From Candidatus Roizmanbacteria bacterium GW2011_GWC1_37_12 (lineage in GTDB: Bacteria; Patescibacteriota; Microgenomatia; UBA1406; GWC2-37-13), in the NCBI GenBank assembly GCA_000991135.1, contig LBST01000014.1, forward strand, positions 1 through 37,683: a DNA stretch of 37,683 nt, in the 5' to 3' direction. The notes beneath the pieces are model-generated. The model saw only the letters and a list, made by a program, of their open reading frames with translations, did no database searches and was not told the DNA's origin. How positions within the stretch are numbered: position 1 is the stretch's first letter; every line of letters begins with the position of its first letter. Of the stretch, positions 1-22,811 are shown in pieces. Position numbers and translations under genes: made by a program.

Positions 1-5095
<5,095 letters not shown>

Positions 5096-10269: not shown

Positions 10270-10339
10270 TCTGGATAGGATACTAGATGCTAGATACTGG
10301 ATTATAGATGCTAGATGCTAGATGCTAGATGCTAGATAA
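10270..10339 (+). repeat. Ten-unit heptamer array (TAGATGC-type) upstream of the four-helix gene
   Basis: Ten consecutive 7-nt units, including four perfect TAGATGC copies in a row, fill most of the gap between the LamG gene and the four-helix-bundle gene. This orientation has stops in some frames and here is untranslated. The complementary-sense array lies on the far side of the four-helix gene at 10733-10767. Confidence 0.9.
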
Positions 10340-10342
10340 AAT

Positions 10343-10723
10343 ATGATAAACGTAAAATTAAATACAAATGGAAATAGTTTTGAAAAATTAATCGTTTGGG
10401 AAAAAACCCACCAATTTGTTTTAGAAATCTATTCCATAACAAAAGAATTTCCAAGTGACGAGAAATATCTTTTAGTAAATCAAATAAGAAGATCCTCATC
10501 TTCTATTGCTGCTAATATTGTGGAAGGTAACGAAAGAAAATCAAAAAAAGAATTTATCCAATTTCTTTACACCGCTAAAGCTTCTCTTTCAGAAACCAAA
10601 TATCATCTTTTATTATCAAAAGATTTAAATTATTTAGATAAAAATATTTATGTTAAATTAAATGTACAAGCTAATGAAATTGGCAAATTAATAAATGGTT
10701 TGATTAATTATTTGAAAAAATGA
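10343..10723 (+). CDS. Four-helix bundle protein (S23/IVP family, 23S rRNA intervening-sequence protein type)
   Basis: 126 residues, with the family signature spread over its full length: FEKLIVWEKTHQFVLEIY, the central QIRRSSSSIAANIVEGNER, then EFIQFLYTAKASLSE. Members fold as a helical bundle; they are found in 23S rRNA intervening sequences, as stand-alone genes, and as the Avd accessory of diversity-generating retroelements. The molecular function of stand-alone copies is unknown. No reverse transcriptase or variable-repeat pair is visible here, so an Avd role is not supported. The gene is bracketed by inverted heptamer arrays (10270-10339 and 10733-10767), and its stop overlaps the prepilin ATG by 4 nt, as if gene plus repeats had been inserted as one unit in front of the prepilin gene. 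Confidence 0.9.
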   Translation: MINVKLNTNGNSFEKLIVWEKTHQFVLEIYSITKEFPSDEKYLLVNQIRRSSSSIAANIVEGNERKSKKEFIQFLYTAKASLSETKYHLLLSKDLNYLDKNIYVKLNVQANEIGKLINGLINYLKK

Positions 10724-11469
10724 AAAAGCATCATCTATCATCTAGGATCTATCATCTAGGATCTAACAAGGCTTTCACCCTGATGGAATTATTAGTAGTT
10801 ATTTCTTTATTGGTCATCATTGCCATTATTGTTTTAATCACCCTTAATCCCTGGGGTCAGATAAACAAAGGCAACGACAGCAAAAGAAAACAAGAATTAA
10901 CTCAACTGAATAAAACATTCGAAGATTTTTACAATGACAAAAACTGTTATCCGGCGCCAAGCGAAGTCTGTTACAACGACACCGGCGGGACAACCTGTAA
11001 TATCTGCGGCAGTGAATCGGCTCCGCCTGATTTTGCTAATTTTTCCCCATATCAAAATACCCTTCCCTGCGACCCCCTGCAGCCAACCAAAAAATATCTT
11101 TACCAGGTTGATGATGTTAGCTGCCCTTCTTGGTATCGGATCTATACGACATTATCCAACCAATCCGATCCAATAATTGCCTCCGTCGGGTGCAGCACTG
11201 GCTGTGGCCCGTCACCGGATTTTATTTATGACTACGGGGTTTCCAGCCCCAATACCGGCCTTGAATCCTCGCTGACCGCCTGCCTTACCTCGGGAAGCTG
11301 TGACAATTATTGCTCTTCTATCGGAAAAGCCTGTATTGCCTCGGCCGCTTTTAGCACATATTCTGACGACAGTTGCCAGACTCAATTAGGTATTTGCAGC
11401 GGCCCGACTTGCTGCAGTCAAAATCCTGTTGGCGGTCAGGTTCAGTCGTATAAATGTTTTTGTGAGTAA
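10720..11469 (+). CDS. Type IV prepilin-like (pseudopilin) protein with repeat-derived leader
   Basis: 249 residues. The class III signal is KA|FTLMELL followed by a ~20-residue hydrophobic helix (VVISLLVIIAIIVLITL). Phe at +1 and Glu at +5 are present, while -1 is Ala rather than the usual Gly. The soluble part is Cys-rich (about 18 Cys), so disulfides after export are likely. GspG-like features are a KRKQELTQLNKTFEDFY helix and a CYP segment. Its likely role is as a pilus or secretion-apparatus subunit, or a membrane-tethered surface protein. The leader is about 18 residues long, and residues ~4-16 (HHLSSRIYHLGSN) are encoded by the heptamer array 10733-10767. The start overlaps the preceding four-helix gene (ATGA). 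Confidence 0.8.
   Translation: MKKHHLSSRIYHLGSNKAFTLMELLVVISLLVIIAIIVLITLNPWGQINKGNDSKRKQELTQLNKTFEDFYNDKNCYPAPSEVCYNDTGGTTCNICGSESAPPDFANFSPYQNTLPCDPLQPTKKYLYQVDDVSCPSWYRIYTTLSNQSDPIIASVGCSTGCGPSPDFIYDYGVSSPNTGLESSLTACLTSGSCDNYCSSIGKACIASAAFSTYSDDSCQTQLGICSGPTCCSQNPVGGQVQSYKCFCE
10733..10767 (+). repeat. Heptamer array (ATCTATC/ATCTAGG x5) encoding the prepilin leader
   Basis: Five units: ATCTATC, ATCTAGG, ATCTATC, ATCTAGG, ATCTAAC. It is translated in the one fully open frame as LSSRIYHLGSN. It is roughly complementary in sense to the array at 10270-10339. Confidence 0.92.
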
Positions 11470-11535: not shown

Positions 11536-13548
11536 ATGAAAAAAATTTTTCTAAATATCATTTTATTTCTTTTTCCCTTTTTTTTTCTTAATGTAACTCA
11601 AGAATATTTTGTCACCAATAAATTATATCTTCTTGGCTTCGGTTCACTTTTCCTCCTACTCATATCAGGAGTAGAATTGCTCCTGACAAAAAAAATCTCT
11701 TGGCAGAAAAACCCTTTTGACAACCTTATTCTTCTTTTTTTGACGTCCGTGGCTGTATCAACTTTGTTTTCTTCACCCAACAAAATCCAGGCGCTTTTAA
11801 ATCCAAATTTTGGATTGGCGATGATGATCTCTTTGGCGGTTTTGTATTTTTATTTGTCTCGGAATGTACGGGCGATTCATGAATCGCTCCTACAATCTAG
11901 GATCTATCATCTAGGATCTATCATCTTGTCTATTATTACAATCATTTTCTATTTCCAACCCTTCAAAAACGTTGCTCTTCCCCAAAATCTTGCCTTTCTA
12001 AAAAATCCCGGATTTACACCGGTTGGCTCTCAATTGGATTTGGCGATCTTGTTGGGATTTTTCATAATTATTGGCATTGTAAATATATTGAAAAAGGGCG
12101 AGAAGACCTCGCCCCTACGATCTATCATCTATCATCTAGGGTCTATCATCTTGCCTCTAACCGCCCTATTTCTAACGATTTATTCATTAATTAAACCTGT
12201 CGGTACAGACGTGATTAATCACGTCTCTACGTTGATTTTGCCGCCATTCCGCCTATCCTGGTTTGCCGCTCTTGAAATTCTAAAAAACCCCGCCTCGGCC
12301 ATAATTGGCATCGGACCTGATAATTTTTCCGCTATTTTTACCCGGGTGAAAGACTTTGCTTATAATCAATCTCCGCTATGGCAAATCAATTCCTTTAATG
12401 TTTCACGTTCGGCGATTCTGCAAATCCTTACCGAAACCGGAATATTTGGTTTATTGACGTTTGGTTTGTTGATTTTTAACGCAATTAAACAATTGGTAAA
12501 GGGCGACCACAAGGGATCGCCCCTACAATTATTTTTATTTCTTTATTTGATCATTTGTTTATTAATTTTTCCTCCTTCTTTAATTCTCTGGTTTTTGTTT
12601 TTCATTTTAATTGCTGAATTATCTAAAATCTATAATCTAGGATCTAACATCAATAAACAGATTATTGATCTTTCCGATCTTCTTCCGATCTGCGTTGGTA
12701 TTGTTATTATTTCCCTAGGCCTAATCGGTGCTTCCGGATATTTTCTCGGCCGCACCTATGCCTCTGAATATTTTTTCAAAAAATCAATTGATGGCATAGC
12801 TCTAAACAACGCTAAATTAGTTTATGACAACCAAAGACAGGCAATTATTTTAAACCCATATATTGAAAGATTTAGAAGCAGTTTTGCCCAGACTAATATT
12901 CTGATTGCCAATAATTTAGCTTTAAAAAATAAAGACGGAAAAATAACAGAGCAGGATCGTCAAACCATTACCCAGGCAATCCAGGCGGGAATTTCTGAAG
13001 GAAAAGTAGTTGTTTCTTTAAATCCTCAAAAAGCCGGGAACTGGCAGAGCCTCGCATCAATTTATGCAAATATTATCAATGCCGCCGCCGGCGCCGACGT
13101 CTGGACGATTTCCGCCTTTCAACGGGCAATTTTAGCTGACCCACAAAATCCGGTTTATCGAGTCAGTTTGGGCGGGGTCTATTATTCTCAAAATAAATAT
13201 GACGATGCTCTAAGATTTTTTGAACAGGCGATTTCCTTAAAACCTGATTGGCCTAATGCCAGTTATAACTATGCCTGGGCAAATTTTCAGAAAAAAAATT
13301 ATCCCCAGGCCGTCAATGCCTTGCAGGCTACCATAAAACTAATCGACCCGAAACTAAATAAAGCCGATTATGATAAAGCGCTGAAAGAATTGGAAGAGTT
13401 CAAAAAAATGCTTCCAAATGAAGACGTCCAGGTCGACCAATCGGGAGAAAAAAACCAGTCGGGCAGTTTGAATTTACCTACACCGCCTACAACTCAAATC
13501 AGCCCGAAGCTGGAGCTACCAAAGGAAGCATCGCCGGAAGCCAAATAA
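11536..13548 (+). CDS. O-antigen ligase/polymerase-like polytopic membrane protein with C-terminal TPRs
   Basis: 670 residues. About ten or more hydrophobic segments occupy residues 1-420. The Wzy_C-like region around nt 12265-12470 (IGIGPDNFSAIF, then SRSAILQILTETGIFGLL) matches the periplasmic-loop and E-x-G motif of O-antigen ligases. After a final TM (~nt 12680-12750) comes a soluble tail with TPRs (YRVSLGGVYYSQNKYDDALRFF, then NASYNYAWANFQKKNYPQAV). In known relatives the enzyme transfers lipid-linked glycans to an acceptor, and TPR forms have been linked to protein or surface-polymer glycosylation; here this is inference. Four palindromes (11865, 12096, 12207, 12501) and three heptamer stretches (11895-11929, 12120-12154, ~12627-12650) are translated in loops between hydrophobic segments, the densest repeat load in the window. 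Confidence 0.82.
   Translation: MKKIFLNIILFLFPFFFLNVTQEYFVTNKLYLLGFGSLFLLLISGVELLLTKKISWQKNPFDNLILLFLTSVAVSTLFSSPNKIQALLNPNFGLAMMISLAVLYFYLSRNVRAIHESLLQSRIYHLGSIILSIITIIFYFQPFKNVALPQNLAFLKNPGFTPVGSQLDLAILLGFFIIIGIVNILKKGEKTSPLRSIIYHLGSIILPLTALFLTIYSLIKPVGTDVINHVSTLILPPFRLSWFAALEILKNPASAIIGIGPDNFSAIFTRVKDFAYNQSPLWQINSFNVSRSAILQILTETGIFGLLTFGLLIFNAIKQLVKGDHKGSPLQLFLFLYLIICLLIFPPSLILWFLFFILIAELSKIYNLGSNINKQIIDLSDLLPICVGIVIISLGLIGASGYFLGRTYASEYFFKKSIDGIALNNAKLVYDNQRQAIILNPYIERFRSSFAQTNILIANNLALKNKDGKITEQDRQTITQAIQAGISEGKVVVSLNPQKAGNWQSLASIYANIINAAAGADVWTISAFQRAILADPQNPVYRVSLGGVYYSQNKYDDALRFFEQAISLKPDWPNASYNYAWANFQKKNYPQAVNALQATIKLIDPKLNKADYDKALKELEEFKKMLPNEDVQVDQSGEKNQSGSLNLPTPPTTQISPKLELPKEASPEAK
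11865..11929 (+). repeat. Composite repeat: REP-like palindrome followed directly by a heptamer array, in frame
   Basis: The palindrome (GGGCGATTCATGAATCGCTC, one mismatch from the 5683 copy) ends in CTACA and is followed without a gap by five heptamers (ATCTAGG, ATCTATC, ATCTAGG, ATCTATC, ATCTTGT). Together they encode VRAIHESLLQ and then SRIYHLGSIIL. Confidence 0.9.
12096..12154 (+). repeat. Second composite palindrome plus heptamer array in the ligase gene
   Basis: GGGCGAG-5 nt-CTCGCCC plus CTAC is followed by ATCTATC, ATCTATC, ATCTAGG, GTCTATC, ATCTTGC. It encodes GEKTSPLRSIIYHLGSIIL. It has the same order and sense as the composite at 11865-11929. Confidence 0.88.
12207..12226. repeat. 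20-bp perfect palindrome (AGACGTGATT/AATCACGTCT) in the ligase gene
   Basis: Flanked by GTAC and CTAC as in the other REP-like copies but with a different core. It is translated as TDVINHVS. The core difference shows that palindromes of one design but different sequence are present. Confidence 0.85.
12501..12524. repeat. REP-like imperfect palindrome (GGGCGA/TCGCCC) in the ligase gene
   Basis: Six-base arms with a 10-nt loop, followed by CCTAC. It is translated as GDHKGSPLQ. Confidence 0.75.
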
Positions 13549-15890: not shown

Positions 15891-16847
15891 TTATAATTTT
15901 TCCAAAAATCGTTCAACTTCTAATGCCGCTGCCACTCCCATCCCAACAGCTGTTGCCGCCTGACGATACTTATGGTCAACGCAGTCCCCCGCAGCAAAAA
16001 CTCCTGGGACTGATGTCATATAATCTTTGACTAAAATATATCCTTTTTTATCAAGCTTAATATGATTTTTGAAGATGTCTGTGTCAGGCTTGTGACCAAT
16101 AGCTATGAAGACGCCGTCTAAAGTTAGATGGTAGATGTCAGATGATAGATGTTTGATTTCATTGTTTTTTTCTAAAATCTGAGATCTAGGATCTAAAATC
16201 TTTATCTTAATCCCTTCCACCTTTTTTCCCCCTACTATTTCTTCAACTTCACTATTAAAAATCACTTCAATCTTTGGATTATTTAATACTCTATCTTGCA
16301 TGATTTTTGACGCTCTAAATTCGGCACGTCGGTGAATAATATATACCTTTTTGGCGAACTTTGTCAAGGTCAATGCTTCTTCCATAGCTGTATCTCCTCC
16401 GCCGATTACAGCGACGGTTTTTTCTTTAAAAAAGAATCCATCACAAGTAGCGCATGCTGACACTCCTTTACCCCGTAAACGAGTTTCAGATGGAAGATTT
16501 AACCAAAGCGCCTTTGCGCCAGTGGCAATAATGACGGATTTTGATTGTAGGGACAATTTATGAATTGTCCCTACGGCAAACGGTTTTTTAGAAAAATCCA
16601 CTTTAACGACATTTTCATCGATAAACCTAACGCCAAACTTCTCTGCATGCTTCCTCATCTTTAAAATTAACTCCGGACCCATTATCGACTCAAACCCAGG
16701 GTAGTTTTCGACTTCAGTTGTCAGAATGAGCTGTCCCCCGGGTGGAGATCCGGCAATAACCAAAGGATTTAGTCCTGCCCGGGCATTATAAATTGAGGCA
16801 GCCAATCCAGCCGGCCCACCACCTATAATTACAACATTTTCAATCAT
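15891..16847 (-). CDS. trxB: Thioredoxin reductase (FAD/NADPH)
   Basis: 318 residues. FAD-binding GGGPAG at residues 9-14, redox pair CATC at 132-135, NADPH Rossmann VIGGGDTAMEEA, HRRAEFRAS for the NADPH phosphate, and the C-terminal FAD motif VPGVFAAGD. It reduces thioredoxin using NADPH. Two repeat-derived stretches are in frame: residues ~93-102 (VGTIHKLSLQ) from a palindrome, and ~216-242 from two inverted heptamer arrays, giving LDPRSQILE and KHLSSDIYHL between the NADPH domain and GVFIAIG. Homologues normally have only a few residues there. The start overlaps the csoR stop by 4 nt (ATGA), implying coupled translation. Confidence 0.95.
   Translation of the reverse strand: MIENVVIIGGGPAGLAASIYNARAGLNPLVIAGSPPGGQLILTTEVENYPGFESIMGPELILKMRKHAEKFGVRFIDENVVKVDFSKKPFAVGTIHKLSLQSKSVIIATGAKALWLNLPSETRLRGKGVSACATCDGFFFKEKTVAVIGGGDTAMEEALTLTKFAKKVYIIHRRAEFRASKIMQDRVLNNPKIEVIFNSEVEEIVGGKKVEGIKIKILDPRSQILEKNNEIKHLSSDIYHLTLDGVFIAIGHKPDTDIFKNHIKLDKKGYILVKDYMTSVPGVFAAGDCVDHKYRQAATAVGMGVAAALEVERFLEKL
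16124..16198. repeat. Inverted heptamer arrays inside trxB
   Basis: On the plus strand one arm is TTAGATG, GTAGATG, TCAGATG, ATAGATG (16124-16151) and the other is TCTAAAA, TCTGAGA, TCTAGGA, TCTAAAA (16171-16198). The arms are in inverted sense and could form a hairpin. Both are translated, as SSDIYHL and ILDPRSQIL. Confidence 0.85.
16547..16574. repeat. REP-like palindrome inside trxB
   Basis: GTAGGGACAATT, a 4-nt loop, then AATTGTCCCTAC. It has the same GTAGGG/CCCTAC ends as the palindromes of the plus-strand surface genes but a different core. It is translated as VGTIHKLSL. Confidence 0.9.
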
Positions 16848-20802: not shown

Positions 20803-20831
20803 AGTATATATTACGATTTTTTTATATACAA
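20803..20831 (-). promoter_or_regulatory. Leaderless promoter TTGTAT-17-TATACT for paralog 1
   Basis: -35 TTGTAT (20826-20831), 17-nt spacer, -10 TATACT (20803-20808), then 6 nt to the ATG at 20796. It lies in the 3' end of the upstream paralog. The predicted transcript starts at or next to the start codon. Confidence 0.7.
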
Positions 20832-22811
20832 GACTATTCCTAAAACAGCAAAAACAAGAATGATTAAAATAAAAACAATCAAAAAGACTTTCAGGTTCAT
20901 GTTGGTCTTTACTTGATTGGTGAGCTTTTGAGAACTATCATTGGATAGATTGTCATTAAAAGTTCTCTTGTTTAATTCTCCTGTTTGCGGATTGACAATC
21001 GGCTGGCTATTTTTGCTTGCTTCCATCAAGTCAAGATTCTCTGATTTAAGATAGGTTTCATTGTTTTTGACAAACTGGCTCGTCGTCTGGCTAAATTTTT
21101 CTTTTGTTTCAGGGTTTTCGATCATCAAATAGTAGTCCAAAAAGGGCAGGTCTTTTGAGTAGATCGTAAAAAAACCACTGTCATCAGCCGACGTCTGGTA
21201 GTAAACGCTTTTGTCCATCTTCAGTACGACGGAAATCTTGGCTTCAGGGATAATTTTTTGACCGCGGTCATAGGCAAATCCTTCAATATAGGTTAAAAGC
21301 GGATTAAAATCTGCAATGACAATGCTGTCGTCTGGAACCTCATCTTCTATACGGATTTTGTTTAGGTCGGCCGAGACTGTTTTTGTGACAATCCCTGTTT
21401 TAAAATACTTTGTATTTTTGGAAATTTCTATGCTGTAGCCATATTGGGACAGTAAGCTTTTTTTAATGACCGCCTGAAAGATTCCGCTTTTGTCAGTCTC
21501 ACCATCCATCAAAACTTTTCCATTGCTTATAACTTTTACCTTTGATAAAGGGTGGGTGACTTTAATAATAAATTGGGTGCCGGCGCTAATGTCTTTTTGA
21601 GTCATTTTTCCAATCTCTATTGGCCTTGAAAAGGGCGCACCTATTGGTTTTAGAGGAATATCAACGCGCTTTGGATCACTCGCCTTTTCAAAAAAGGGCG
21701 GGTCACCGGCTTTGTAAATAAATTCATATAGATCTTTATATAAAGGATTTACGTCAACCGATTCAAAAGAATGGTTGGTTTTCGGTGCTACTTTCAACTT
21801 ATAACTATCGTCTTTTATGACCAAGATATTATAAACTCCAAAAATATCAAGACTGTCGTCATTGGTCGGTAGGCTGACTCGATTATCGTTTTTGTCAAGA
21901 AGAGTAACGATGGCATCATCTTCACCTAATGGTTCAAGTGATTGACTATCAAAAACTTTTCCATATGGGTCCCACAAAATAATCGAACACATCTGTGGAT
22001 TACCTTCACTAATTTGAACTTGTGTTTGTCCAAAGTTAAGAGAGCTTAGCTTTTGAGAAGCATCGTCACCGCTCTTTTGGGTCGGAAGCGGTGAAAGCAT
22101 GGTAATTGTTGGAGCAATACCATTGATAGGGGCCGAATATATCATATAAATGGCATGACCATGGGCGTTGTGCAAGACCCCTGGAATATCTGTAAATGAT
22201 CCTGCTGGAAATGAGTTTTGTTCTTGATTACCATCAAATGTCACATATGGCATATAGAGCAAAACATTATCTGTATTTATGTTATTCCCTGGTCCAGCCT
22301 GGGCACTAACTGCACCGGCAAAAAACTGTTTAAGCTCTGGTGAGATATTAGTATCTTTATTTTTCCAGCATTTGTCATAGCAGTATTCAGGGATTTCTTC
22401 TTGAGGTCTCTCTCCATTTACTCCTGCTCCTCCCATACCAACACTAAGACATGGCTCTCTCGTGCTTCCCTCACCTTCTCGCCTTCCTCCACCTGTCGGC
22501 AAAGCACAAATGACAACTTCACAGCTTTCTGAATCATTGCAAACTCCTGACATTTTTATAGGAGACTTTGGTATTTTTCTTGGATCGATCTCATCGCCTT
22601 GACCTTCACCAAATTGAACCTGACCGTTCTGTTCGACGTGAACACAGCTCCAGGTTTGGTCGTATTCGCGGTCAGAAAAGTTGACTTCAGGTGAAGACGT
22701 CTGGGCGAAAATATTTGTATTTAGTATCGAGTATAGAGTATAAAGTATAAGAACAAAGACCATTGCTCTAATACTAAATACTAAATACTTTATACTAGAT
22801 ACTTTATTCAT
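20811..22811 (-). CDS. Membrane-anchored surface protein with carboxypeptidase-regulatory-like domains (paralog 2 of 3)
   Basis: 666 residues with the same plan as its neighbours: an N-terminal signal segment (residues ~1-36, ending NIFAQ), a Gly- and Cys-rich N-terminal region, a beta-sandwich around DPYGKVFDSQSLEPLGED (~residues 275-360), a second around YIEGFAYDRGQKIIPEAKI and DDSGFFTIYSKDLPF (~500-570), the linker PIVNPQTGELNKR, and a C-terminal TM (~640-662) ending KKS. It is presumably exported and anchored facing outward. Both flanks of the signal-peptide core are encoded by inverted heptamer arrays (22714-22803), so the hydrophobic core is the loop of a DNA hairpin. No catalytic motif recognised. 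Confidence 0.8.
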   Translation of the reverse strand: MNKVSSIKYLVFSIRAMVFVLILYTLYSILNTNIFAQTSSPEVNFSDREYDQTWSCVHVEQNGQVQFGEGQGDEIDPRKIPKSPIKMSGVCNDSESCEVVICALPTGGGRREGEGSTREPCLSVGMGGAGVNGERPQEEIPEYCYDKCWKNKDTNISPELKQFFAGAVSAQAGPGNNINTDNVLLYMPYVTFDGNQEQNSFPAGSFTDIPGVLHNAHGHAIYMIYSAPINGIAPTITMLSPLPTQKSGDDASQKLSSLNFGQTQVQISEGNPQMCSIILWDPYGKVFDSQSLEPLGEDDAIVTLLDKNDNRVSLPTNDDSLDIFGVYNILVIKDDSYKLKVAPKTNHSFESVDVNPLYKDLYEFIYKAGDPPFFEKASDPKRVDIPLKPIGAPFSRPIEIGKMTQKDISAGTQFIIKVTHPLSKVKVISNGKVLMDGETDKSGIFQAVIKKSLLSQYGYSIEISKNTKYFKTGIVTKTVSADLNKIRIEDEVPDDSIVIADFNPLLTYIEGFAYDRGQKIIPEAKISVVLKMDKSVYYQTSADDSGFFTIYSKDLPFLDYYLMIENPETKEKFSQTTSQFVKNNETYLKSENLDLMEASKNSQPIVNPQTGELNKRTFNDNLSNDSSQKLTNQVKTNMNLKVFLIVFILIILVFAVLGIVLYIKKS
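22714..22803. repeat. Inverted heptamer arrays (nnAGTAT / nnATACT) forming the signal-peptide region of paralog 2
   Basis: On the plus strand TTTGTAT, TTAGTAT, CGAGTAT, AGAGTAT, AAAGTAT (22714-22748) face TAATACT, AAATACT, AAATACT, TTATACT, AGATACT (22769-22803). The arms are complementary in sense with a 20-nt loop. Translated on the minus strand they give VSSIKYLVFSI and LYTLYSILNT. Confidence 0.9.

Follow-up and report, generated by a model that had tools for sequence, protein, structure and literature searches.

The closest described systems are the intervening sequences (IVSs) of 23S rRNA. According to passages of PMC4990558, the Coxiella IVS carries GACAGAT heptamers before S23p, in a number that varies between strains, and a terminal stem of 28 bp. 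It is processed by RNase III and is discussed as a former mobile element, and S23p forms a pentameric ring. Parts of PMC11270868 state that IVP can be encoded by CPR rRNA insertions. Heptameric SSRs, with the units GGGAATC in Xanthomonas, GGGGA(T/C)T in Nostoc and TAACTGA in Beggiatoaceae, are described in passages of PMC4692102 and PMC4679880. PMC4692102 contains none of the terms 'S23', 'four helix' and 'intervening', and PMC4679880 neither '23S' nor 'four helix'. In the open-access literature no paper was recognised that ties S23/IVP genes outside rRNA to heptamer arms.

The window, meaning the whole analysed stretch of 37,683 nucleotides, is contig C14 of a 994,505-bp genome (Candidatus Roizmanbacteria bacterium GW2011_GWC1_37_12). 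Two unrelated genes in it, trxB (16125-16202) and a fibre gene (4374-4448), each contain an inverted-heptamer hairpin, that is, an inverted pair of TAGATNN arrays (Table 1). The original prediction that both genes encode the same pair of peptides, derived from inverted heptamer arrays, is borne out by the codons and by the arms, which are paired + / - at both sites. In trxB the first part reads ATT TTA GAT CCT AGA TCT CAG ATT TTA and the second CAT CTA TCA TCT GAC ATC TAC CAT CTA; in the fibre gene they read TTA GAT CCT AGT TCG CAG ATC CTA GAT and CTA GCA TCT AAC ATC CAG GAT CTA TCA TCT. Both hairpins fold better than their dinucleotide shuffles, but moderately so (z -2.33 with 7 of 200 shuffles as good, and z -2.28 with 3 of 200). 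In the AlphaFold model of TrxB (mean pLDDT 81.5) the insert is predicted to form extra strands with lower confidence (66 for residues 221-230, 71 for 231-240). A further palindrome (GTAGGGACAATTTATGAATTGTCCCTAC, 16545-16580) lies inside trxB and is translated, and a RAYT-like Y1 transposase gene (PF01797, 5085-5651) overlaps the end of the fibre gene.

Table 1. Repeat arms and associated genes in the window. Arm coordinates in trxB and the fibre gene are from TAGATNN matching with up to 2 mismatches.
Feature	Position	Strand	Remarks
Collagen-like surface fibre gene	170..5095	+	holds hairpin
TAGATNN arm, fibre gene	4173..4205	-	no recognised partner
TAGATNN arm, fibre gene	4259..4291	-	no recognised partner
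Fibre hairpin, left arm	4374..4406	+	TAGATCC TAGTTCG CAGATCC TAGATTC TAGAA
Fibre hairpin, right arm	4416..4448	-	
S23/IVP element, left arm	10277..10337	+	TAGATGC type
S23/IVP gene, PF05635 (23S rRNA intervening sequence protein)	10343..10723	+	homologous to PDB 2gsc (XCC0516)
S23/IVP element, right arm	10730..10765	-	in 5' end of pilin-like gene
TAGATNN arm, membrane protein gene	11888..11927	-	right after palindrome
TAGATNN arm, same membrane protein gene	12113..12152	-	right after palindrome
TAGATNN arm, same membrane protein gene	12621..12653	-	
trxB (thioredoxin reductase)	15891..16847	-	interrupted at residues about 216-240; shorter or different loop in relatives
trxB hairpin, left arm	16125..16157	+	TAGATGG TAGATGT CAGATGA TAGATGT TTGAT
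trxB hairpin, right (inverted) arm	16170..16202	-	LDPRSQIL encoded on coding (-) strand
Inverted arms with another unit (AGTATAG type)	22714..22803	.	5' end of surface protein gene (20811-22811, -)

The agreement between the two peptides has a simple cause. A perfect (TAGATNN)n array has TAG in every frame once per 21 nt, so that no frame gets past three perfect units. The third unit of the first arm is CAGAT in both genes, and the third unit of the second fibre arm is ATCCAGG; these are the units that would otherwise give an in-frame TAG. The common LDPxSQIL is thus forced by the same repeat unit and the need to read through it (TAG to CAG), and does not reflect protein kinship; nor is the shared peptide evidence for copies of one fixed sequence. 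The partnerless arms in coding genes (4173, 4259, 11888, 12113 and 12621) have the CTA strand as sense in every case, which is what one would expect if stops weed out TAG-sense arms.

Of 57 genomes, 48 have a TrxB match, and 29 relatives with loci were aligned. The segment might have been conserved in distant trxB homologues, but it is absent or replaced in all 29. Site A is bounded by the KVEG motif and the conserved IAIGH. The window has 45 residues here, the two shortest relatives (L005 and L014) have 24, and the commonest form has 30. The gain of residues that had been predicted is real, but the figure of about 25 is too high: it amounts to 21 compared with the shortest relatives and to 15 compared with the commonest loop length. 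Heptamers of other units occupy site A in L015, L029 and L010 (lag-7 scores 29, 11 and 10, against 18 in the window), and 9-nt repeats do so in L030. A second site, B, is short in the window and holds arrays (lag-7 scores 13-38) in L004, L006, L011, L012, L014, L015, L020, L024 and L030. The repeats at the two sites are unlike in different relatives, and TrxB therefore has two tolerant loops that received repeats more than once.

The hairpins in trxB and the fibre gene probably belong with a larger unit, which the original prediction had missed. At 10277-10765, 5.4 kb from the trxB hairpin and amid the TAGATNN clusters of the window, the same arms pair with each other and bracket an S23/IVP gene (PF05635 match, E 7.6e-40), an architecture that recurs across bacteria. 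The trxB and fibre arms have the unit of this element, and the ORF is absent from both. The S23 protein of the window is related to PDB 2gsc and 2rld, and it also has a bAvd-like Pfam match. A type IV pilin-like protein starts with residues encoded by the right arm (10720-10765), HHLSSRIYHLGSN, which precede its FTLMELLVV motif.

The TAGATNN unit is clustered around this gene. With up to one mismatch there are 10 array clusters in the 37.7-kb window, compared with 3 in 400 kb sampled elsewhere and 6 elsewhere in the whole genome. The other 29 letter orders of TAGAT served as controls because TAGAT reversed is again TAGAT, and the next best of them has 3 clusters in the window. Period 7 is by far the strongest repeat period, both here and in the genome sample. 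Arrays of this period, of any unit, number 11 in the window when the collagen repeat is excluded, whereas none of 10 second-order Markov shuffles contains a single one. Among 437,683 bases sampled from the genome (threshold 12) there are 71 arrays at lag 7, 14-15 at lags 8-9 and 0-4 at lags 4-6 and 10-13. At threshold 11 the same bases contain 84 arrays, of which 55 are inside ORFs of at least 90 aa and 39 can be paired with an inverted partner at most 650 bp away that scores better than 40 shuffles. The trxB and fibre arms are missing from the list at the strict threshold because their units have diverged.

Other repeats in the window combine differently. GGGCGA..TCGCCCCTAC palindromes stand immediately before TAGATNN arms twice in one gene (11867-11927 and 12096-12152), and both of these composites end in ATCATCTTG, forming a composite repeat. 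The inverted arms of the AGTATAG type (22714-22803) encode most of a hydrophobic stretch (YLVFSIRAMVFVLILYTLYSILNT) at the N-terminus of a surface protein, to which this element seems to supply a signal peptide.

Six genes in this genome match PF05635. Five have arms visible on both sides, with a period of 7 (L031, L033 and L035), 8 (L032) or 9 (L036), and L034 has an array on the left, its right side being lost to the contig end. Among the relatives, 44 of 57 genomes have a match. From these searches 35 S23 loci were read. A genome-contig search added 80 of 573 confirmed candidates, which by record title belong to Patescibacteria, Nitrospirae, Omnitrophota, Planctomycetes, Spirochaetaceae, Fibrobacter, Chloroflexi, Bacteroidota, Alpha- and Deltaproteobacteria, Verrucomicrobia, Synergistaceae, Acidobacteria and others. 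A plasmid search gave 36 records, and the 14 S23 loci taken first (12 together with L229 and L230) all have inverted short-unit arms by reading. When short, interrupted and identical proteins were dropped, the set from Patescibacteria, other phyla and cyanobacterial plasmids comprised 122 distinct proteins, 119 of them with both flanks.

A best period of 7, 8 or 9 (score at least 9) is found beside 110 of the 119 genes (79, 18 and 13, respectively), compared with 13 of 110 control stretches located 410-520 bp away (6, 3 and 4). The arms are complementary with z>3 at 76 of 111 S23 loci and at 5 of 90 other ORFs drawn from 90 of these loci. A gene's own arm pair beats all swapped pairs at 23 of 34 loci and at 18 of 77 in the further set; in the controls this happens for 0 of 29 trxB flanks and 3 of 6 RAYT flanks. 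Arm similarity rises with the identity of the S23 proteins, from 8.7 at 30-50% to 12.2 at 60-70% (Spearman 0.197, 0 of 500 permutations, 119 loci), while the outer flanks stay near 9.4 whatever the identity, except above 70%, where whole loci are related. In the 70 of 119 loci with an arm score of at least 15, the median element is 459 bp and the median arm 36.5 bp. The left arms of these 70 are rich in G (47 have a GC skew above 0.2 and 7 one below -0.2) and in TAG (173 compared with 67). The arm units vary, and no end sequence is conserved among the elements. Very probably, S23 genes and inverted short-unit arms travel together. The elements are not IVSs in the strict sense, since they are not located in rRNA: an Rfam search of 29 sources gave tRNAs and no rRNA.

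The length of the unit is not strictly fixed, as seen in the 9-nt or 8-nt arrays at site A of L030 and at L036, L032 and L229. Unlike S23 elements lie between cas6 and cas4 in type I-D CRISPR loci of two cyanobacteria, and another lies between cmr2 and cmr3 of PCC 7003 (L173, L227 and L180). A motif upstream of several S23 genes, TTTTGTAG..TATAGTC..GAC, is present at 8 of the S23 loci examined and was rejected as a part of the element, having 14 matches in 438 kb that are mostly away from S23. Its longer form ending in GACA is conserved at L152 (12543), L153 (19183), L155 (15589), L161 (13387) and ten other places and has no Rfam match in the loci searched.

The heptamers might instead be ordinary SSRs that have grown by slippage where hairpins or AT-rich DNA allow it, with S23 genes merely tolerating them. 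Many solo near-perfect arrays of 4-4.5 units in ORFs point in this direction, as do the 45 of 84 arrays for which no inverted partner was found and the unlike units in the trxB loops of relatives. Slippage leaves unexplained, however, why the arrays are linked to S23 genes, why the inverted arms match, why arm similarity tracks the protein and not the flanks, and why arms are gained and lost with the ORF. Direct arrays standing without a partner or an associated gene are not what is found at the S23 loci or at the trxB and fibre pairs. As an account of the whole pattern slippage is unlikely.

Gain and loss can be followed on plasmids. Relatives without an S23 gene at the site were found for 7 of the 8 plasmid loci searched, and none was found for L172. 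At these empty sites the arms and the ORF are absent together. GTAAT is duplicated in Trichormus variabilis (L179) relative to the Aulosira and Fremyella plasmids (L187 and L188), and TTCTA in Nostoc sp. ATCC 53789 (L181) relative to Nostoc sp. C057 (L191), each being 5 bp long. The other five empty sites (L174, L178, L180, L173 and L230) are diverged or complex and gave no clean junction. The sister plasmid L193 has an ORF-less arm pair where L178 holds an S23 element, L191 is also among the places with arms but no ORF, and the element in L189 looks truncated. Comparison with swapped loci shows no enrichment of 5-mers shared by the arm ends (5 of 70 compared with 6.2). Old insertions and uncertain ends may hide a duplication, or the duplication may not be general. 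Arms and S23 gene occur together in many phyla, and related plasmids either have both or lack both. The predicted landing of the hairpin as a discrete element is in this respect confirmed for S23-bearing relatives on plasmids, and would extend to trxB and the fibre gene.

Another explanation is that S23 genes natively carry the arms as a regulatory or processing hairpin, such as a terminator or a site for RNase III, and that no mobile element ends there. In Coxiella the heptamers are cut by RNase III according to passages of PMC4990558, and S23 genes are co-directional with their neighbours at 66 of 71 loci (5 against), 24 of the 119 being excluded because of contig edge or distance and 24 having neighbours on unlike strands. 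This orientation bias is weak evidence, because genes native to an operon would be expected to show it as well. A native hairpin is nevertheless improbable, and somewhat more so than slippage, considering that arms and ORF are missing together at the empty sites, that two sites have 5-bp duplications and that arms occur without the ORF in L191, L193, trxB and the fibre gene.

The best reading is that S23/IVP elements outside rRNA are mobile units of about 460 bp (arm, ORF, arm), and that ORF-less copies or arms in coding genes add residues. The segments in trxB and the fibre gene are then ORF-less or decayed copies of such an element, with a probability of roughly 0.7. They would be mobile copies rather than local repeat growth and would probably descend from the local S23 element. 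Some observations run counter to this reading: duplications are seen at two sites only, with no general 5-mer signal; the trxB and fibre copies have no empty counterpart at base level; and the length of site A also varies among relatives that have long loops without heptamers (L004, L008, L012 and L025).

A full element has the S23/IVP gene between two arms, the left one built of tandem units of 7 nt (sometimes 8 or 9 nt) and the right one of the same units inverted. In the proposed mechanism, insertion might take place at the DNA level with a 5-bp stagger. Slippage would lengthen and shorten the arms, and hairpin-templated correction could keep them complementary. The ring formed by the S23 protein may handle the hairpin as DNA or RNA. 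In rRNA, RNase III would cut such hairpins out, as published for Coxiella, and in coding genes ORF-less copies would persist only if they are read through, which would force TAG to CAG changes and restrict them to tolerated surface loops. A classical transposase that recognises ends is hard to fit, because the arm units are not conserved in sequence. One rve transposase was found in this genome, and a search for DDE_Tnp_1 gave no match.

Spread through RNA, with a reverse transcriptase copying the hairpin RNA, is suggested by the kinship between S23/IVP and Avd of diversity-generating retroelements. The bAvd-like match of the window's S23 protein and the strong sense orientation (66 compared with 5) are consistent with it; yet the 5-bp duplications suggest a staggered cut in DNA, and RVT_1 (PF00078) has no match in this genome, which is 94% complete. 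A reverse transcriptase was therefore dropped as the mover, and this route is quite improbable. It is most doubtful that the hairpins are REP-type elements moved by RAYT-like Y1 transposases, even though RAYT genes are present (one in the window and six PF01797 matches elsewhere in the genome) and palindromes directly abut two TAGATNN arms, since the six RAYT loci have no lag-7 excess on the right flank and little on the left, the palindromes differ in sequence, and Y1 transposases are not expected to leave 5-bp duplications.

A broader and more tentative proposal can be made. S23/IVP genes might define a pan-bacterial class of minimal mobile elements. Their sole gene would encode a four-helix-bundle protein that forms pentamers, and recognition of their ends would depend on the register of the repeats and the shape of the hairpin instead of on sequence. 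The well-known heptamer repeats of cyanobacteria, Xanthomonas and Patescibacteria could then be their arms and footprints, and ORF-less copies could continually supply new peptide segments, signal peptides and N-termini. The finding would give a context to the S23/IVP protein, a widespread protein with no known function, and would account for the abundance of seven-base repeats in many bacteria. It shows how enzymes and surface proteins can gain residues from a repeat element. It also makes a question testable: does S23 move its own hairpin or process it?

Compared with known systems, the RAYT/REP system resembles the present one in having palindromic repeats in the same window, but it differs in sequence, in gene family and in having no tandem units, and no clear heptamer excess was found beside the six RAYT genes. 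The heptameric SSRs share the abundant 7-nt units, and convergent pairs are reported in Xanthomonas, whereas no link to S23/IVP is reported in the passages of PMC4692102 and PMC4679880. Rickettsia palindromic elements (RPEs) and other MITEs are likewise small palindromes inserted in frame in coding genes, where they add residues, as described in parts of PMC10969869. An RPE has a length of about 150 bp and encodes a conserved peptide; the segments here are about 75 bp of inverted heptamers with no conserved sequence beyond the unit, and have an associated form that bears an ORF. Host and organisation differ as well. The 23S IVSs with an S23p/IVP ORF, in Coxiella and Leptospira, have the same plan of a PF05635-type ORF between inverted arms, and the tandem heptamers beside the ORF, in the passages on Coxiella, correspond to the short periods at 110 of 119 S23 genes. 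Unlike the IVSs, the elements described here lie between or inside protein genes, in 29 Rfam-searched sources that gave no rRNA; their arm units vary between elements, and their ORF-less copies are translated.
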